The position numbers and the translations under genes were made by a program. 64,000 nt of DNA from assembly GCF_011043775.1 (NCBI RefSeq), contig NZ_JAAKXY010000004.1, positions 434,001 through 498,000 of the forward strand, read 5' to 3'. Under the pieces are notes generated by a model. The model had not been told where the DNA came from, did no database searches, and worked only from the letters and a program-made list of their open reading frames with translations. Shown piece by piece: positions 36,925-60,639 of this stretch. The stretch is from Natronolimnobius sp. AArcel1 (GTDB taxonomy: Archaea; Halobacteriota; Halobacteria; Halobacteriales; Natrialbaceae). Position 1 is the stretch's first letter. Each line of letters opens with the position of its first letter.

Positions 36925-36998
36925 GGGCTCGTGGTCTAGCTGGTTATGACGCGGCCTTTACAAGGCCGAGGTCGGTGGTTCGAACCCGCCCGAGCCCA
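36925..36998 (+). tRNA. tRNA-Val (anticodon UAC)
   Basis: The acceptor arms GGGCTCG (36925-36931) and CGAGCCC (36991-36997) pair fully, with discriminator A. The anticodon stem CGGCC/GGCCG closes a seven-base loop TTTACAA giving anticodon TAC. The T-arm has GGTTCGAACCC. No intron is needed. tRNA genes are common integration targets, and AT-rich accessory DNA begins just downstream. Confidence 0.96.
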
Positions 36999-51268: not shown

Positions 51269-51664
51269 TTAACTACTGGGTAGTTCACCTTCACTTCGAA
51301 TAAACTCGTCAATCAACTCTTGTTCGATATCTTCGACGAACGTCTCACCATCATCAGCCAGTGTTTCCTCACCGTGTTCAATAACCACATCACCATCACC
51401 ATCACCTTCAACAATCTCACCAATCACTGTATCCTCACTATCAAGACCAGCATCATCTACCACGTACGAATCACGCAATACTGGGCCAGACTCTGCTATA
51501 CTATTGTCTATTCCTAGTTGTCCGACAAGCCCGCCGGTCTGAGAATCGCCTTCTACGTCACCAGTCGCGTAAGACTCTACAACCTCTCCACTATCACTAT
51601 TCAACCCGACAAATCCACCAACCATTTCGTCACCAGGCACATCACCAGACTGACCAGGCATTCT
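51269..51664 (-). pseudogene. C-terminal fragment of a GLUG-motif surface protein
   Basis: The readable protein holds one and a half GLUG repeats (GGFVGLNSDSGEVVESYATG, then GGLVGQLG) and an acidic tail. GLUG repeats occur in large secreted adhesins. No start or signal peptide belongs to it: upstream, the frame runs into the last codons of the recombinase gene 51642-52802, which uses another frame. It is therefore a remnant of a longer surface-protein gene cut off at the recombinase end. Confidence 0.65.
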
Positions 51665-52802
51665 GGACTGCATCGGACCGATCCATTTTCTGTTTTCGCT
51701 TTGTTCGCGGATCGTAGTGCTTTTTGAGTACCGGGATCGAAACGTCAAACCGTTCACTTGCGCGAGAAGGGTATAATCCATTACTGAGATGATTCACGAT
51801 CGCTCCCCGACGAATCGCGTGCGGGCAATATGAGTACGGACAAACGTTCAAATCCGGATCACACCCCCCATCACAAGTGATTGGTTTATTTCTTCTTACG
51901 GAATCATAATTTATTTCTGATTCATCAGGTGCCCAGCGGCAACTTGTCGCTTCATAGATCCACCTACGAAGCGTGGATTTAGACGCTCGACCCTGCTTTG
52001 TGGCAAACAGGGGCGAACGACTGTATTCATCAGTTACATCAGGGCGTACGTTATCGATGTACCATTGAATGGCGTCAATGACTCGATCTTTGACGATGAC
52101 GTCTCGTTCACCATCTCCAGGTGTATTATCCTGCACCTCACCGTTTTTCAATCGAGTCCCTGTATCTGGCCGGTGTCTAAGGACAATCGTATTTTCATCC
52201 GATCTAAAATCCTTTACATCGAGTGAGTGAAGATCACCGATCCGAAGGCCACCATTGAAACCAACTTCTATGATAGCATGCATTTTCGATCCGTAGCGCT
52301 GTTCACCAAGCCGTTCGATGATGTGTCGTGCGACTGATTCCGGAATTGCTTCGTCACGTACCGTCGGGTCAAGATTTAATTCGTCTTTATCGAGAACCCT
52401 GTAAACGGCTTCATCACAGTATTGTCGTTTGGATAGCCACCGAAGCCAGCTTCGCACATTTTTTGTATATGTGAGCTGGGTTGCGTCAGCTTCGTGTTTC
52501 TGCTTGACCTCATCCACATACCTATCTACCAGTTCTATTGACAGACCTGATGGAATCGTCACTCCTTGCGCTTTTGAGAAGGCGATGAACTCGGGGATGG
52601 TTCGTTTATATTGTGCACGAGTTGCCGGACTTCGATTCTCTCTCCGTGAGAGATATCGTTCATACAGATCCTCAAGTGTGGGGGAAGACGGCGTTTTGTC
52701 ATCAGACTCTGAAAGGACCTCAACGCCGACGCTATTGAGGATATCCTGAATGGTTTCTGGGTCATCGATTTGCGCTAGGGTTTCTGGGAGTGAGAGGCTC
52801 AT
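51642..52802 (-). CDS. Tyrosine recombinase/integrase, catalytically complete
   Basis: A 386-residue recombinase. The N-terminal core-binding domain (about 40-140) includes YLSRRENRSPATRAQYKRTI. The catalytic domain keeps Arg in GFNGGLRIGDLHSL, the His-x-x-Arg box in CPHAIRRGAIVNHL, and the nucleophile Tyr in VLKKHYDPRTK. A cysteine cluster (CDGGCDPDLNVCPYSYC) before the box is typical of haloarchaeal integrases and may bind zinc. The ATG at 52802 overlaps the stop of the partner gene by four bases. Confidence 0.88.
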   Translation of the reverse strand: MSLSLPETLAQIDDPETIQDILNSVGVEVLSESDDKTPSSPTLEDLYERYLSRRENRSPATRAQYKRTIPEFIAFSKAQGVTIPSGLSIELVDRYVDEVKQKHEADATQLTYTKNVRSWLRWLSKRQYCDEAVYRVLDKDELNLDPTVRDEAIPESVARHIIERLGEQRYGSKMHAIIEVGFNGGLRIGDLHSLDVKDFRSDENTIVLRHRPDTGTRLKNGEVQDNTPGDGERDVIVKDRVIDAIQWYIDNVRPDVTDEYSRSPLFATKQGRASKSTLRRWIYEATSCRWAPDESEINYDSVRRNKPITCDGGCDPDLNVCPYSYCPHAIRRGAIVNHLSNGLYPSRASERFDVSIPVLKKHYDPRTKRKQKMDRSDAVQNAWSVW

Positions 52803-53683
52803 TGTTCGTTGAGAGTTTTCGAGATTCCGGCCCACTGGATATCGCTTGGAAGAATCACTGTCTCCGAATCACTGCCCTGTTCGGATGTTCGGGCTGGTCG
52901 ATCAGGTTCACGGGGCCATAGGGAGAGGTCGCTACTCGCGCGTTTCACAGAACGTCGAAGCGTCGATGATGAGGCTCGACCGTGTGGTGTTGTGAATAAT
53001 GGTTTGTTCTGCTGTTCAGATGAGGTGTCTCGTTCGTGTTCCAGGTATGTGCTTATCGATTCCGCGACGTTGGCTGGTATACTTGCAGTTCGTGTGGTGT
53101 GTATGCCTGTTGAGACTGGAAGGTGCGTCTCCGGAAGATTGAGAGTTACCGTCTTGCTTTCGATGCTGATGTCGTTACAGTTGAGTTCTTGAAGTGGTGC
53201 TGGATTCGATCCTGTGTAGTAGAGGAGTGCAGCATACACGTGCGTTCGCGTGCCGTATTCAGAGCGTTGTAGATAGTTGAGAAAAGCTTCAACGTCTTCC
53301 TCAGAGACGCCGTTTGGACTTTTTTCCTGGAGGAGCGTTCCTGCGAGTTGCATTTTGACCTGAGTGGCCATGTCGGCATCATCGGGGATGTGGTGTGCTA
53401 TGCGTGCCTTCTCGTGGCTTGGATCGGATTTGTGTATAACCGCGAGGAGGTTAGCTAACGTGCAGGCTTGCCCGGTGATAGTTTTGGGTTCGTACCCACG
53501 TTCCAGTTGGTAAGTTGCGTATTCTGCGACGATTTTCGCGGTGAGCTGTGGTGGGTTGTGCTGCTGGTTTATCAGCCAGGATTGGAACGCTAAGGTTGTG
53601 CTTTGATGGGACTGGTATGTGCTAAGTGCTGTGGACGTGGGTATTTGGCTGAGGTAGGTCGAAACCTCTGTTCGAAGTTGCAT
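52799..53683 (-). CDS. Tyrosine recombinase-like protein lacking catalytic residues
   Basis: A 294-residue paralogue of the downstream integrase. The core-binding domain is present (TLAFQSWLINQQHNPPQLTA, NLLAVIHKSDPSHEKAR). The first catalytic Arg region reads YYTGSNPAPLQELNCNDI with no Arg. PLFTTPHGRASSSTLRRSVK matches PLFATKQGRASKSTLRRWIY in the partner, but the protein then ends without the His-x-x-Arg box or Tyr. It may serve as a DNA-binding or architectural partner in a heteromeric recombinase. Translationally coupled to it by a four-base overlap. Confidence 0.8.
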   Translation of the reverse strand: MQLRTEVSTYLSQIPTSTALSTYQSHQSTTLAFQSWLINQQHNPPQLTAKIVAEYATYQLERGYEPKTITGQACTLANLLAVIHKSDPSHEKARIAHHIPDDADMATQVKMQLAGTLLQEKSPNGVSEEDVEAFLNYLQRSEYGTRTHVYAALLYYTGSNPAPLQELNCNDISIESKTVTLNLPETHLPVSTGIHTTRTASIPANVAESISTYLEHERDTSSEQQNKPLFTTPHGRASSSTLRRSVKRASSDLSLWPREPDRPARTSEQGSDSETVILPSDIQWAGISKTLNEQ

Positions 53684-55349: not shown

Positions 55350-55508
55350 ATGTCGAAGCCCAATTGCATCGACAATGCTGACGTGCGCTGGGCGGTCCAG
55401 CGCGCCCTGGTAAATCTCAAGCACCGATTGACCATGCTACGCGGACGTGAACGCGCCCGCATGCACTCAGAGCAGTTTTGTGGCGTTCGAGGTGGGATCA
55501 ATGAGTAA
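55350..55508 (+). CDS. Small basic protein leading the recombinase cassette
   Basis: A 52-residue frame, MSKPNCIDNADVRWAVQRAL onwards, rich in Arg and His (LRGRERARMHSEQF), with its stop overlapping the next ATG in ATGAGTAA. The overlap matches the other junctions of this cassette, which is the main support for it being real. It has no known family. The stretch is more GC-rich than its surroundings and also contains a perfect seven-base hairpin (55385-55403), so an RNA or regulatory role is possible instead. Confidence 0.45.
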   Translation: MSKPNCIDNADVRWAVQRALVNLKHRLTMLRGRERARMHSEQFCGVRGGINE

Positions 55509-56016
55509 CCTTTCGAATAGTAATAGAGATAAATCGATCGCGTCGAGCAGCAGCGAAGACTCAGAGAAGGATGCGTTAGAGAAGGTTCCAGCAACATCGT
55601 ATGTTCCTCGAATCCAGTATGAGAAATGGAAGGGAGAGGCAGAGAATCGTGACCAGTCGATCAGTACGCTGATCGCTACGATGGTTGAGGCAGGATTGAA
55701 TGATATCGAGCTAGAAGACGAGTCGCCGTCTGAGATCGTTGATCTACGGTCAGAGTTGCAGGAGGTCCGATCTGAGCGTGATGATCTTTACGAGAAACTA
55801 CAGCGGAAAGAGCGCGGGGATTTCCAGGTTGGACTCGGTCGAGTGAAGGAACTAATTATCGAGAACCCTGGTATTGATCGTCGTGAGATCATAAATTTCG
55901 TGATGGAAAATCCGGTATTGTTTGTCGATAGTTACCTTGAGAGTTTGGAGACATCTGAGTTCAGGAAGCAGAATGGAAAGTGGTTTCCGCCTGAATCTGT
56001 GGAGGTGGACGAATGA
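55501..56016 (+). CDS. Probable DNA-binding accessory protein (coiled coil)
   Basis: A 171-residue protein. After a Ser/Asn-rich start, PRIQYEKWKGEAENRDQSIS and TLIATMVEAGL look like a ribbon-helix-helix segment; a coiled coil follows (VDLRSELQEVRSERDDLYEK), then a winged-helix-like C-terminus (NPGIDRREIINFVMENPVL). The stop overlaps the next start by four bases (ATGA). It probably helps the recombinase bind DNA or controls the cassette (inference). Confidence 0.65.
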   Translation: MSNLSNSNRDKSIASSSSEDSEKDALEKVPATSYVPRIQYEKWKGEAENRDQSISTLIATMVEAGLNDIELEDESPSEIVDLRSELQEVRSERDDLYEKLQRKERGDFQVGLGRVKELIIENPGIDRREIINFVMENPVLFVDSYLESLETSEFRKQNGKWFPPESVEVDE

Positions 56017-56480
56017 CTACTACTCATAAGCACAAAGACTTCGCATCTGTGTATGACTCTCTATCCGAAATTCCTGATGACAAAAGGCTTGATACCTTTG
56101 AGATGGAATTTAGAGGCAGGGACGTAGTGAATGAATATCTGTCATATAAATACGGTGATGGGGACTACCACGAGAAATTCGTAAATCAGGTCGATAGGGC
56201 ATTTCAAACTTGGAAAGAAGTCTGTAAACAGAATGATTGTCATCCAGCATTGGCTGCACCGCACGTGATAAATGAATGGTGTATATCACTCGTCAAGAAT
56301 GCAAAAAGAACCACTGTGAAAGACAACTACCTATCACATATAAATCGTTTCTATAGGTACATGAAATGGCATATCGATTATCCTCATTGCTATAACCCTG
56401 TTCAATTTGCGGTTCGTGACTACGAAGTTGCTAAATCTGTCTGGAATTGCCGCGTTGGGGGTGAGAAGGATGGTGAATGA
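56013..56480 (+). CDS. Recombinase core-binding-domain-only protein
   Basis: A 155-residue protein that looks like the N-terminal SAM-like domain of a tyrosine recombinase (FQTWKEVCKQNDCHPALAAP, VKDNYLSHINRFYRYMKWHI) without any catalytic domain. Its end overlaps the following recombinase start by 11 bases. It is either an accessory DNA-binding subunit or a split-off domain; the conserved coupling argues for use rather than decay. Confidence 0.68.
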   Translation: MTTTHKHKDFASVYDSLSEIPDDKRLDTFEMEFRGRDVVNEYLSYKYGDGDYHEKFVNQVDRAFQTWKEVCKQNDCHPALAAPHVINEWCISLVKNAKRTTVKDNYLSHINRFYRYMKWHIDYPHCYNPVQFAVRDYEVAKSVWNCRVGGEKDGE

Positions 56481-57621
56481 TGAGGACGTAGTTGATCAAC
56501 TATCGGCGTTCGACGAAATAGGTGATGAATTCAATCAGGATGTGGATTCATTGAAGAAGTACGATCAGCAGTTCAAGCAGATTGATCAGGATCCTGTTGA
56601 AATTTACTGTGAGGTTGTGGTTTCACAAATGAACAACACTGACAAGGCTAATAGAAGGAAAATTTCGAGAATAGAGGAGTACTTGGAACATATGGAGCAA
56701 TATGAAAGGCATCCAGCTTGTGCAAACTCTCACCATATCTCTCAGTTTATAAACAAAGAGATTAGAAAAGGACACCAACCACATACGATCAACCTTAAAA
56801 TTTCTGAGATTGAAAGCATGTTTGACTATTGGTCGAACCACCCTAAGATGCCGCACCCACCGGAGGGCGAAAATAAGTATAATCCAGCTACAATAGCTCG
56901 CGGATTCAAGAAGGATGCAATTCAGAGAAATTCAAAAAGCATCCAAAAGACCCCTCCTCGGATACCAATTGAAGAATTATCCCACCGAATCAGGCAAATA
57001 AAGAACACACTTCACAGGGCGTTCATCGTTTGCCAGTTGAAACACGGATCAAGAGCCGGGCAGACCTCTAATTTACAGTTGCGGGATATCCAGCTTAATC
57101 ATGACGGGTTGAACAAACTGTACCCTGAACTTGGTACGCACCCTCGATTGAGGGATGTCAAAGAGGACGCGATCTATTATGCACCATTCCAAGAGCGTGA
57201 AGGTGGAAAATCTAAACGACCGATCGTTTTACCAATTGATAATGAATTGAATCGGTTGCTTGTAAAATATCTTCGCCTACGTCCGCCAGTTGAGGAACCC
57301 TGGCTCTTTCTCAATCCCGCCACATGTGGGAAGATAACTACTGGGTACGCAAATGAACGATTTTGGAAGAACCACTTTCAACCAGAATATGCTGAAACAG
57401 AACTGTACCGTGGAGTGACATCACACTTCGCACGGCACTATTTCAGCACGTACTGGAAGACTCAAATAGACACCAACGAAGAATACTTGAAATATATGAG
57501 GGGAGATAAGAATGGGGATTTAGATGGAGGGTCGCCAGACATTATGTATACATATATACACACACATTTCCCGGATGTGAAAGATGAATATCTTAGGAAT
57601 ATTTACAAGTTTGGGATCTGA
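56470..57621 (+). CDS. Tyrosine recombinase/integrase, catalytically complete
   Basis: A 383-residue recombinase. The N-terminal domain includes NRRKISRIEEYLEHMEQYER and INLKISEIESMFDYWSNHP. The catalytic domain has Arg in LKHGSRAGQTSNLQLRDI, the His-x-x-Arg-His box in TSHFARHYFSTYW, and a candidate Tyr nucleophile in DIMYTYIHTHFPD. It is the last gene of an overlapping cassette starting at 55350. Not closely similar to the 51642-52802 recombinase, so the region holds two separate recombinase lineages. Confidence 0.85.
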   Translation: MVNDEDVVDQLSAFDEIGDEFNQDVDSLKKYDQQFKQIDQDPVEIYCEVVVSQMNNTDKANRRKISRIEEYLEHMEQYERHPACANSHHISQFINKEIRKGHQPHTINLKISEIESMFDYWSNHPKMPHPPEGENKYNPATIARGFKKDAIQRNSKSIQKTPPRIPIEELSHRIRQIKNTLHRAFIVCQLKHGSRAGQTSNLQLRDIQLNHDGLNKLYPELGTHPRLRDVKEDAIYYAPFQEREGGKSKRPIVLPIDNELNRLLVKYLRLRPPVEEPWLFLNPATCGKITTGYANERFWKNHFQPEYAETELYRGVTSHFARHYFSTYWKTQIDTNEEYLKYMRGDKNGDLDGGSPDIMYTYIHTHFPDVKDEYLRNIYKFGI

Positions 57622-57748
57622 TCCAATTTAGGAGTGAGTGCCATTTTGATCTGTTCTGCTAGCAAATTCTAGTCTTTGTCCCGTGAATTCCCGAAAGTGC
57701 TAGCAATCGAAATTCGTTCCATCAACAATCAGTTATTATAATTAAAAC

Positions 57749-58087
57749 CTACTCGTGGATGCAGATTAATCCGTTACTGTTGACTACCACTTGATTATCT
57801 GTGTGAGTGAATACAACAACTTCAGCAGTACCAACGGAATACTGGTCTCGTGAATCACCAAACAAAAGCAGTTGGAGCGCTTCAACATCAATGGAATCGT
57901 ATAATGGTGGTTCCACTATTTCTGAAATTGATGTATCCTTGGCTTCGGCAATAGCGTCACAGATCGCAGTTGTAAGGCTATCATCATTCTTGATAGAGTA
58001 TCGCTTTTGAGCTAAGCATTCCCCACTATCCTGAAATCCACATTCGCACCAATCACCCTCTATCGACGACTTCTCGTCATCAATCAT
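57749..58087 (-). CDS. HalOD1 protein with N-terminal cysteine extension
   Basis: A 112-residue protein (alternative start two codons upstream). The first 30 residues hold three cysteines (DWCECGFQDSGECLAQ), possibly metal-binding. A HalOD1 domain follows (TTAICDAIAEAKDTSISEIV, PPLYDSIDVEALQLLL, NQVVVNSNGLICI). Small downstream-oriented neighbours at 58080-58522 overlap or abut, forming a likely three-gene operon. Confidence 0.7.
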   Translation of the reverse strand: MIDDEKSSIEGDWCECGFQDSGECLAQKRYSIKNDDSLTTAICDAIAEAKDTSISEIVEPPLYDSIDVEALQLLLFGDSRDQYSVGTAEVVVFTHTDNQVVVNSNGLICIHE

Positions 58088-58316
58088 TTTCACTCACCTT
58101 AATGAACCCCCCTTCAACGATTCTGTAGTGAACTTCCTCACTAGATTCAGTATTTACCCCCAGCTCCTCCAAATCCTCAGCAGTGAGAAACATTCCTACA
58201 CCTAATGGGTTACCTGCCGCATCTCGAATCATCTGACTTCTCCATGAGTCACCCCGTTCCTCGTAATTATCTTTGATTGATGTTGTGTCGTCCTCGTTGT
58301 GGTAGTGTTCTCCCAT
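58080..58316 (-). CDS. Hypothetical small protein
   Basis: A 78-residue acidic protein starting MGEHYHNEDDTTSIKDNYEE. The second half, NPLGVGMFLTAEDLEELGVN then YRIVEGGFIKVSEND, looks like a small beta-barrel or AbrB-like fold. No firm family. It overlaps the HalOD1 gene downstream and nearly overlaps the zinc-ribbon gene upstream. Confidence 0.55.
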   Translation of the reverse strand: MGEHYHNEDDTTSIKDNYEERGDSWRSQMIRDAAGNPLGVGMFLTAEDLEELGVNTESSEEVHYRIVEGGFIKVSEND

Positions 58317-58321
58317 TTTGA

Positions 58322-58522
58322 TCACCAATCCAAATTCAGGTGTTCCCAACCGAATTCCGCGATCTCTTCCCTAGTGAGTTCATCTATTTGGAGTTCCTGA
58401 AGGGCGATACAGCCTTCACCGGGACATCCGAATAAATGAGATGGATACACACTTCCCTCGTCATAAACCCATCTTAAAGTCGTTCCACAACTACTACATT
58501 TAGATGTTAGTACCAATGGCAT
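58322..58522 (-). CDS. Small zinc-ribbon protein
   Basis: A 66-residue protein with CSSC at residues 9-12 and CPGEGC at about 33-38, a plausible four-cysteine zinc site, followed by an acidic helix (IDELTREEIAEFGWEHLNL). It leads the small operon with the 58080 and 57749 genes. Function unknown. Confidence 0.6.
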   Translation of the reverse strand: MPLVLTSKCSSCGTTLRWVYDEGSVYPSHLFGCPGEGCIALQELQIDELTREEIAEFGWEHLNLDW

Positions 58523-58703: not shown

Positions 58704-59198
58704 TCAATCGGTAATTGAGTTATCCGGTGACACCGCTCCCCCAGAATAATGTTCCACGATTGACTTGCAGAAAAACGTTTGAACGAGCGGTGACGTGGTC
58801 TGTACGATCGCAACGAGTGGCTTCAAATTTTGCCCTGGTGTTACGATTTTTCGATCAGAATCATAGTTGATTGCGCTCACATCGTATAGTCGGGGCAAGT
58901 GTGTTTGAATGAGCGAGTTGTAGACATTGTGGTAGGAATCCCCGGTGGCGTGATCTTTCGGGACTCCTTGTTCTATCATTACGATTTCGCGTGCAAGTTC
59001 TCGAACTGTTACCTCAGCCGGTCCATCTTTGCGGCTGGGTTGAGAATTGTCTGTACCGTCATTACTTGGAACCACCCCAAACTCCCGGTCACCTAAAAGG
59101 AGAATTGTAAGTCTTCGTCTCGATGACCGAAGGACGTGATGGATAGTTGACGCTGATGATCCAGTATGATGATTTCGAAAGTAGTCTGGGTCATCCAT
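58704..59198 (-). CDS. DUF7344-like winged-helix protein
   Basis: A 164-residue protein. VLRSSRRRLTILLLGDREFG, VTVRELAREIVMIEQG, YHNVYNSLIQTHLPRLYDVS and INYDSDRKIVTPGQNLKPLV follow the haloarchaeal DUF7344 winged-helix layout. The family often accompanies HalOD1 or small regulatory proteins. The start at 59198 (MDDPDYFRNH) is taken over an upstream, Cys-rich extension. Confidence 0.7.
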   Translation of the reverse strand: MDDPDYFRNHHTGSSASTIHHVLRSSRRRLTILLLGDREFGVVPSNDGTDNSQPSRKDGPAEVTVRELAREIVMIEQGVPKDHATGDSYHNVYNSLIQTHLPRLYDVSAINYDSDRKIVTPGQNLKPLVAIVQTTSPLVQTFFCKSIVEHYSGGAVSPDNSITD

Positions 59199-59368
59199 TT
59201 TTGGCACCTCTGTTGCTATGTTCCCCCTCCTTCTGACCCCGCACAAACAAGCAGTCAATCCCTCCCATATGCGAGAACCGTTCACACCCACCTATTTAGT
59301 TCTTACTGAGGAATTAATTCCTCTGTGGTGGAGAATTGCTATTCCTTTGGCTTGGCACGATTTGGATA

Positions 59369-60161: not shown

Positions 60162-60366
60162 TATTACTTTCCAGTTGAGCCGAAGGGGGTGGGAGCGTGT
60201 GACAGGTTGTGAACCACCGAACCCTTCGTCATCAATTCACCATACTAATACATAAATCTACATTCGCCCTGCAATATGTGTGTCACCTTTACTCGTCGGT
60301 TACGTAAACTTACAGCCGGATACGGGAGAGATAACAAATACCACAATCAATGAAATGGCCTTTGAG

Positions 60367-60639
60367 ATGGACGAACTCACAGGATTCCAACGCGATTTAT
60401 TGTACGTCATCGCGGGGGCCGAGCAACCATCAGGCCAAGACGTCAAAGAGGAGGTTGAACAGTACTACAGCAGTGAAATCAACCATGGGCGGCTCTATCC
60501 GAACCTCGACACCTTGGTCAATAAGGACCTCGTCGAGAAGGGCAAACTCGACCGACGGACCAACTATTATAATCTCAACGACACGGGTGAGGAAGTTATC
60601 GAGGAACGACGAGAGTGGGAGTCACAGTACGTTGATTAG
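60367..60639 (+). CDS. PadR-like transcriptional regulator (island copy)
   Basis: A 90-residue single-domain PadR protein starting MDELTGFQRDLLYVIAGAEQ, with about three-quarters of its residues identical to the core copy at 26210-26485. Recognition-helix residues (NHGRLYPNLDTLV) are unchanged, so both may bind the same operator. The ATG at 60367 gives the exact family start; upstream in-frame residues are not protein-like. Confidence 0.82.
   Translation: MDELTGFQRDLLYVIAGAEQPSGQDVKEEVEQYYSSEINHGRLYPNLDTLVNKDLVEKGKLDRRTNYYNLNDTGEEVIEERREWESQYVD

Follow-up and report, generated by a model that had tools for sequence, protein, structure and literature searches.

In tyrosine recombinases that have been well studied, the two domains with which a protomer binds its site belong to a single chain. 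RIT elements carry three recombinases, Tn554 carries two recombinases and TnpC, and SNJ2 inserts into tRNA genes. Both RIT elements and Tn554, which are named in PMC10214605, have several coupled recombination genes, as does the cassette described here. The GInts carry their operon at one end, have short repeats and insert site-specifically into genes; their partner GinC lacks the catalytic residues, and GinD is a small helper. All these features, as PMC5385486 describes them, recall our cassette. The GInts are reported there as absent from archaea. The strand-biased circularizing integrative elements (SEs) are alike in their overlapping or coupled genes, a non-catalytic Tfp, a coiled-coil Srap, imperfect inverted repeats at the ends and a 6-bp footprint. 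They are described as forming a single-stranded circular intermediate and leaving no empty site after recombination (PMC10214605). Likewise, the SNJ2 operon (OP012469; PMC8371274) is haloarchaeal and consists of three overlapping genes with the integrase last. Its helpers are a small winged-helix protein (gp3, according to a review) and a small coiled-coil protein (gp2), gp1 being the integrase (PMC8371274), and the cassette shares the coiled-coil and winged-helix features. In the literature searched, including the relevant sections of PMC11078007 and PMC4158269, such a haloarchaeal module is not described, which is not proof of its absence.

The window, that is, the whole stretch of 64,000 nucleotides analysed, belongs to a haloarchaeal genome (G000:C4:434001-498000). 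It contains a cassette of three co-oriented open frames on the plus strand: g2 (55501-56016, 171 aa), g3 (56013-56480, 155 aa) and g4 (56470-57621, 383 aa). The overlaps of 4 bases (g2/g3) and 11 bases (g3/g4), reported by an earlier sequence-only reading, are borne out by these frames. That reading had described four overlapping genes. More precisely, it placed a small basic protein before g2, with an 8-base overlap. This g1 is a 52-aa ORF (55350-55508, plus strand) that we cannot support as a gene. It has no Pfam or NCBIfam match. A search of 100 related genomes returned scattered weak hits only (E 0.011 at best), and the cassette loci of relatives gave nothing convincing (best E 0.29). Since g1 has no homologues, the cassette is retained as g2-g3-g4, not as four genes, and the 8-base overlap rests on an unsupported ORF.

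Downstream of g4, on the minus strand, lies a homologue of u1 (58080-58349). It matches at 1e-26 a profile built from seven proteins, the window u1 protein itself among them. u1 has no Pfam match. Among the 38 loci with g2, 18 have this small gene upstream of g2 and in the same orientation, whereas the window copy is on the opposite strand. Just past g4, and also opposite to the cassette, are a HalOD1-domain protein (57749-58093) and a DUF7344 protein (58704-59291). By eye, DUF7344-like genes recur close to other cassettes.

Judged on gene content, the cassette is analogous to the GInts, the SEs and the SNJ2 operon, and it is a member of none of them. The ginABCD operon encodes three integrase-like proteins, all of normal size and two complete (PMC5385486), whereas the cassette lacks such a set of three and has one catalytic protein. 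In GInts, the stop codon of the last operon gene marks the start of the cargo. The same is seen in the pairs L031/L032 and L132/L136, where homology ends at the g4 stop; in other close pairs it ends near this stop or runs on. The SEs have two catalytic recombinases, IntA and IntB, beside Tfp and Srap, and their Tfp keeps more of the fold than g3 does (PMC10214605). In contrast, g4 is the sole catalytic protein of the cassette. Target-gene replacement is not mentioned for SEs in the sections of PMC10214605 on which we draw. The SNJ2 operon has no core-binding-only subunit, and its proteins are unrelated to those of the cassette at the profile sensitivity used. g4 falls outside the SNJ2 integrase family, with short marginal matches only (E 0.018 over 17 aa). 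Nor are g2 and g3 recognizable as the SNJ2 Orf2/Orf3 helpers, as neither has a significant profile match to gp2 or gp3. The earlier comparison with RIT elements is the weaker one, because RITs use a row of three tyrosine recombinases, against a single catalytic one here; the GInts, the SEs and the SNJ2 operon are closer.

The g3 protein was read earlier as core-binding only, and we find no catalytic domain in it. It aligns to residues ~40-156 of g4 (hhalign probability 98.3%, E 1.5e-14). On this profile evidence, g3 is a paralogue of the core-binding domain of g4. The g3 profile also matches the N-terminus of the neighbouring recombinase, which reflects the same paralogy. The predicted model of g3 (pLDDT 87.9) fits the core-binding domains of several recombinases: Z is 9.9 for lambda Int, 9.3 for XerD, 8.9 for a Haloarcula integrase domain and 8.3 for Cre. 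The fold search gave 29 rows with Z from 9.9 to 7.3, all of them recombinases or recombinase-fold proteins, and the next row had Z 4.0. For a helical bundle, Z values below ~13 are not strong alone; the assignment rests on the gap below Z 7.3 together with the profile match to g4. From model and profile, g3 has the core-binding (SAM-like) fold of the N-terminal domain of lambda Int, XerD and Cre. Foldseek alone gives weak E-values (best 0.055), and Pfam alone misses the domain in 13 of 14 members. The g3 frame is open in 15 loci, with 146-175 aa and invariant residues that include P21, W67, P124 and H125. Stand-alone g3 occurs at 59 places (profile, E < 1e-30) in 52 of 391 Halobacteria genomes.

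The idea of an archaeal analogue of the bacterial elements with several recombinases, in which one core-binding domain has become separate, thus gains support from this hhalign match (98.3%), from the conserved gene order and from the element ends seen in relatives. The split was earlier said to mirror a neighbouring pair of recombinases. The paralogy agrees with a split-off domain, but the pair is a separate system. It lies at 51642-53683 and consists of a full 397-aa recombinase and an overlapping 294-aa one. By eye, the 294-aa partner ends before the HxxR and tyrosine region, so it is probably non-catalytic.

The residues R195, K247, H319/R322 (HxxR) and Y362 of g4 are invariant across all 16 aligned sequences. 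We take these positions to be the catalytic residues of tyrosine recombinases. By these signatures g4 is a complete tyrosine recombinase, in agreement with the earlier reading. It shows a YMRGD motif at the position where other recombinases usually have LGH. The window g4 is divergent, with a best identity to relatives of 42% and a long branch in the tree (1.81). It has no phage match at E 0.01. The g4 of a relative gave only distant phage matches, all of them to bacterial phages, and the matches of g4 in plasmids are distant too.

In the g2 protein, alignment, model and fold search point to three parts: the N-terminus is RHH-like, a coiled coil of 45 residues follows, and the C-terminus is a winged helix. 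The first two had been recognized before, and the winged helix had been missed. The predicted model has pLDDT 73, and the structure search returned weak winged-helix matches only. The Pfam matches of g2 members are likewise weak, though they agree in kind with these domains (RHH_1, NikA-like, HTH).

A similar protein accompanies a widespread recombinase of haloarchaea. A g4 match was found in 127 of 127 near-complete genomes searched. In all 13 weaker-match loci examined (L018-L030), a g2-like RHH/winged-helix gene adjoins or overlaps the recombinase that follows it, and g3 is absent. These core recombinases form a group separate from the cassette g4 (support 100/100). The best NCBIfam match of the one tested is the XerA model, below its cut-off. 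The RGD variant is shared, being found also in L048. This core operon of an RHH/winged-helix gene and an Xer-like recombinase is the nearest cellular relative of the cassette, and its regular layout makes g2 a plausible recombinase partner. The simplest history, as judged from the sequences, is that the cassette shares ancestry with the core two-gene operon and gained g3 by duplication of the core-binding domain.

The cassette recurs in other haloarchaea. After pooling and removal of duplicates, 67 distinct loci were obtained: 38 with g2-g3-g4, 26 with g3-g4, one with g2-g3 (a cut contig) and two with g4 only (both degraded). The order g3-g4 is present in 64 of the 67, most of which were found with g3 as the query. 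With g4 alone as the query, 17 strong places (E < 1e-40) besides the window appeared in 16 of 149 genomes. The fragments in G102 were left out, as they lie on a 4.4-kb contig. Among the 16 loci found in this way (L031-L046), 14 have a separate g3 and 12 have g2. The gene order and its overlaps are not due to chance, as they recur across loci. The sequence-only reading had staked its proposal on a conserved order and on homologues of the first two genes: the order is conserved, and g2 has homologues before g3 in 38 of the 67 loci, whereas g1 has none. As 26 of the 67 loci lack g2, this protein is not always needed. Its patchy presence in the cassette tree would be explained most simply by repeated loss; L054, L065 and L067 carry g2, and the loci L040 and L042 are degraded.

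A further 17 loci came from a scan of named genomes; their titles mark all as haloarchaeal but one ("uncultured archaeon"). When 392 genomes were drawn evenly from the phylum, 11 matches resulted, all within the order of the window, and no relative was seen beyond Halobacteria. Three scans of viral contigs found no relative of the cassette, and plasmids contained no relative of g3.

Relatives carry the cassette close to one end, 0.3-2.4 kb inside it, of integrative elements that measure ~5 to 136 kb. Where the g4-side end was seen, it is found ~0.3 to 2.4 kb past the g4 stop. Three conserved target genes were identified, each entered within its coding sequence: those of a beta-CASP RNase, a PurD-like ATP-grasp protein and Nop5. 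The ends show direct repeats of 7-8 bp and inverted terminal repeats, and the elements carry a whole or partial (5') replacement of the gene they split. It is already known that islands often restore the genes into which they insert, as stated in PMC12884075.

In the beta-CASP RNase group, the host gene is broken at GATGCTC. The element starts with GGAAACGAAGAT..CGCTAGCAGT in Halorussus litoreus/G143, G036 and Halobacterium bonnevillei. The far end, covered for H. litoreus/G143 and G036 only, reads ..TTCGTTTCC, followed by GATGCTC and the remaining host gene; the element is 42 kb long. The predicted circular core, TTCGTTTCC-GATGCTC-GGAAACGAA, is dyad-symmetric around a 7-bp overlap. A complete RNase copy of 417 aa is present in these elements. 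Those of H. litoreus/G143 and G036 are 94.6% identical over 33 kb, and the likeness ends exactly at the g4 stop codon.

The PurD-like gene is split at ~codon 216 (G239, G159, G158 and G149), and the host halves are 74 to ~136 kb apart. The size in G149 is an estimate, because its halves lie on two contigs. The repeat is GTGCTCG, with arms TATTTCC../..GGAAATA and an inverted repeat of ~23 bp; the right repeat of G239 is GTGTTCG, one base different. The predicted attP core of this group is GGAAATA-GTGCTCG-TATTTCC. A full-length copy of the gene lies between g4 and the g4-side end, and it is broken in G158. The nop5 gene is split at ~codon 92 in G355, G369 and G338, the right side being found also in G283. 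Near the junction, the first 90 codons borne by the element have closely similar DNA in the four genomes; joined to the host DNA, these codons restore the gene. The direct repeat of this group is imperfect. When host halves were rejoined in silico, one open frame with both halves resulted in six of seven cases (A, B, G158, G159, G239 and G355); G369 failed.

The element of G355 (L139) is 5.4 kb long, and its G+C of 54% is below the 64% of the flanking DNA. The remaining ORFs in it are small, and no other recombinase was recognized among them by eye. The cassette adjoins one element end in all three target groups and, by analogy, is the likely machine of the larger elements too. An IS605-like insertion after g4 in L119, first taken as an att insertion, was dropped. 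As a separate observation, the stretch just past g4 varies between close elements (L031, L032, L112, L132 and L136). By eye, it holds defence-like genes, namely type I restriction-modification genes and those of a PHP/ATPase protein and of membrane proteins.

The comparison of ends proposed earlier thus succeeded for relatives, in three target groups, and not for the window copy. This copy lies inside a low-G+C island of 35.2 kb at a tRNA-Val gene (36925-36998, plus strand); the island runs to ~506210 of G000:C4. The last 22 bases of the gene (36977-36998) form one island end, and their copy at 72189-72210, beyond the window, forms the other. Near this far end is the island integrase (70948-72081 in window numbering), which is SNJ2-type and 45% identical to the SNJ2 integrase. 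In G002 the island flanks are together and the site looks empty, and G001 has a different island, of 23.6 kb, at the same tRNA-Val. The window also encodes a 119-aa PadR/MarR-like protein (60280-60639) that resembles SNJ2 Orf3 by eye; it lies in the same island, far from the SNJ2-type integrase.

Scans of the DNA around the window cassette gave no significant ends of its own. One candidate, the 8-bp repeat TGAGCGCA (54001/58569) flanked by inverted arms of 9 bp, was equalled or beaten in 5 of 60 shuffles and was rejected. Wider scans gave nothing convincing. The best pair of one of them (39667/69682) scored 31 against up to 30 in 12 shuffles; it lies mid-ORF, 12 kb from g4, and was discarded. 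The AT-rich motif matches at 57733 and 60564 are unpaired. The window copy may be either an active nested element or a relic.

We consider it probable that g2-g3-g4 is the integration and excision module of a class of haloarchaeal integrative elements, with g3 for DNA binding only, g4 for catalysis and g2 as an assembly or direction factor. The gene order, the paralogy of g3 with the g4 N-terminus, the element ends, the split host genes and the restoring copies are all established at the level of sequence. In the proposed reaction, catalysis would fall to g4, the tyrosine recombinase. DNA binding in the same complex would come from g3, a duplicated core-binding domain that lacks the catalytic half. 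g2 would bind DNA through its RHH and winged helix, and its coiled coil would join the parts. The module would recombine a dyad-symmetric attP core, with arms around a 7-8 bp overlap, with a 7-8 bp match inside the coding sequence of a conserved gene. With it, the element would bring either a full copy of the gene that it splits or a substitute for the 5' part. From the relatives, we infer that the window copy may work likewise.

Other readings have to be weighed against this one. g3, with g2, could be a regulator, namely a recombinase-fold repressor acting on att or on a promoter to control g4. MrpR and YopR of phage SPbeta are thought to act in this way, and both are among the fold matches of g3 (Z 7.9 and 7.7); the RHH and winged-helix domains of g2 are also typical of regulators. 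Nevertheless, the g3 frame overlaps that of g4, the two genes occur together in 64 of 67 loci, even where g2 is absent, and g3 lacks the catalytic-like half present in MrpR and YopR (chains of ~320 aa). We therefore regard a regulatory role as unlikely. That g3 is a decayed recombinase fragment would fit its short length and single domain, but it is hardly credible at all, being contradicted already by the conservation of g3: its open frame of 146-175 aa in 15 loci, its invariant residues and its presence in 52 of 391 genomes. Quite improbable as well is a divergent SNJ2-type integrase operon. The layout is indeed the same, since SNJ2 gp3, gp2 and gp1 overlap and helpers precede a final integrase. 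Conversely, the similarity of g4 is marginal, g2 and g3 have no detectable similarity to gp2 and gp3, and neither of the two SNJ2 helper proteins is a core-binding domain.

For the window copy alone, the cassette may be a passenger, a captured and functionless relic in a tRNA-Val island moved by its own SNJ2-type integrase. This is quite possible, though we lean somewhat against it. The island integrase adjoins the island end, no ends of the cassette appeared in the scans, and its sequence is divergent (best identity 42%). On the other hand, the three frames are all open and the catalytic residues are all kept.

Taking the integration and excision module as the preferred reading, we suggest, tentatively and with slightly more doubt than belief, that these elements form a distinct haloarchaea-specific class. 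It would be built on a hetero-oligomeric recombinase, composed of a core-Xer-like recombinase and a duplicated core-binding subunit, hence the insertion into coding sequences with gene replacement in each lineage. With a conserved separate core-binding subunit, the division of labour in multi-subunit recombinases (GInts, SEs and RITs) could be tested in a minimal case with one catalyst. For such a test of the subunit roles, the element ends, att cores and target genes reported above provide substrates. That an RHH/winged-helix gene precedes the core recombinase points to a possible partner protein for the Xer-like recombinases of haloarchaea. Finally, such a class would explain a set of large haloarchaeal islands inside conserved genes, and it would offer integrases for haloarchaeal genetics.
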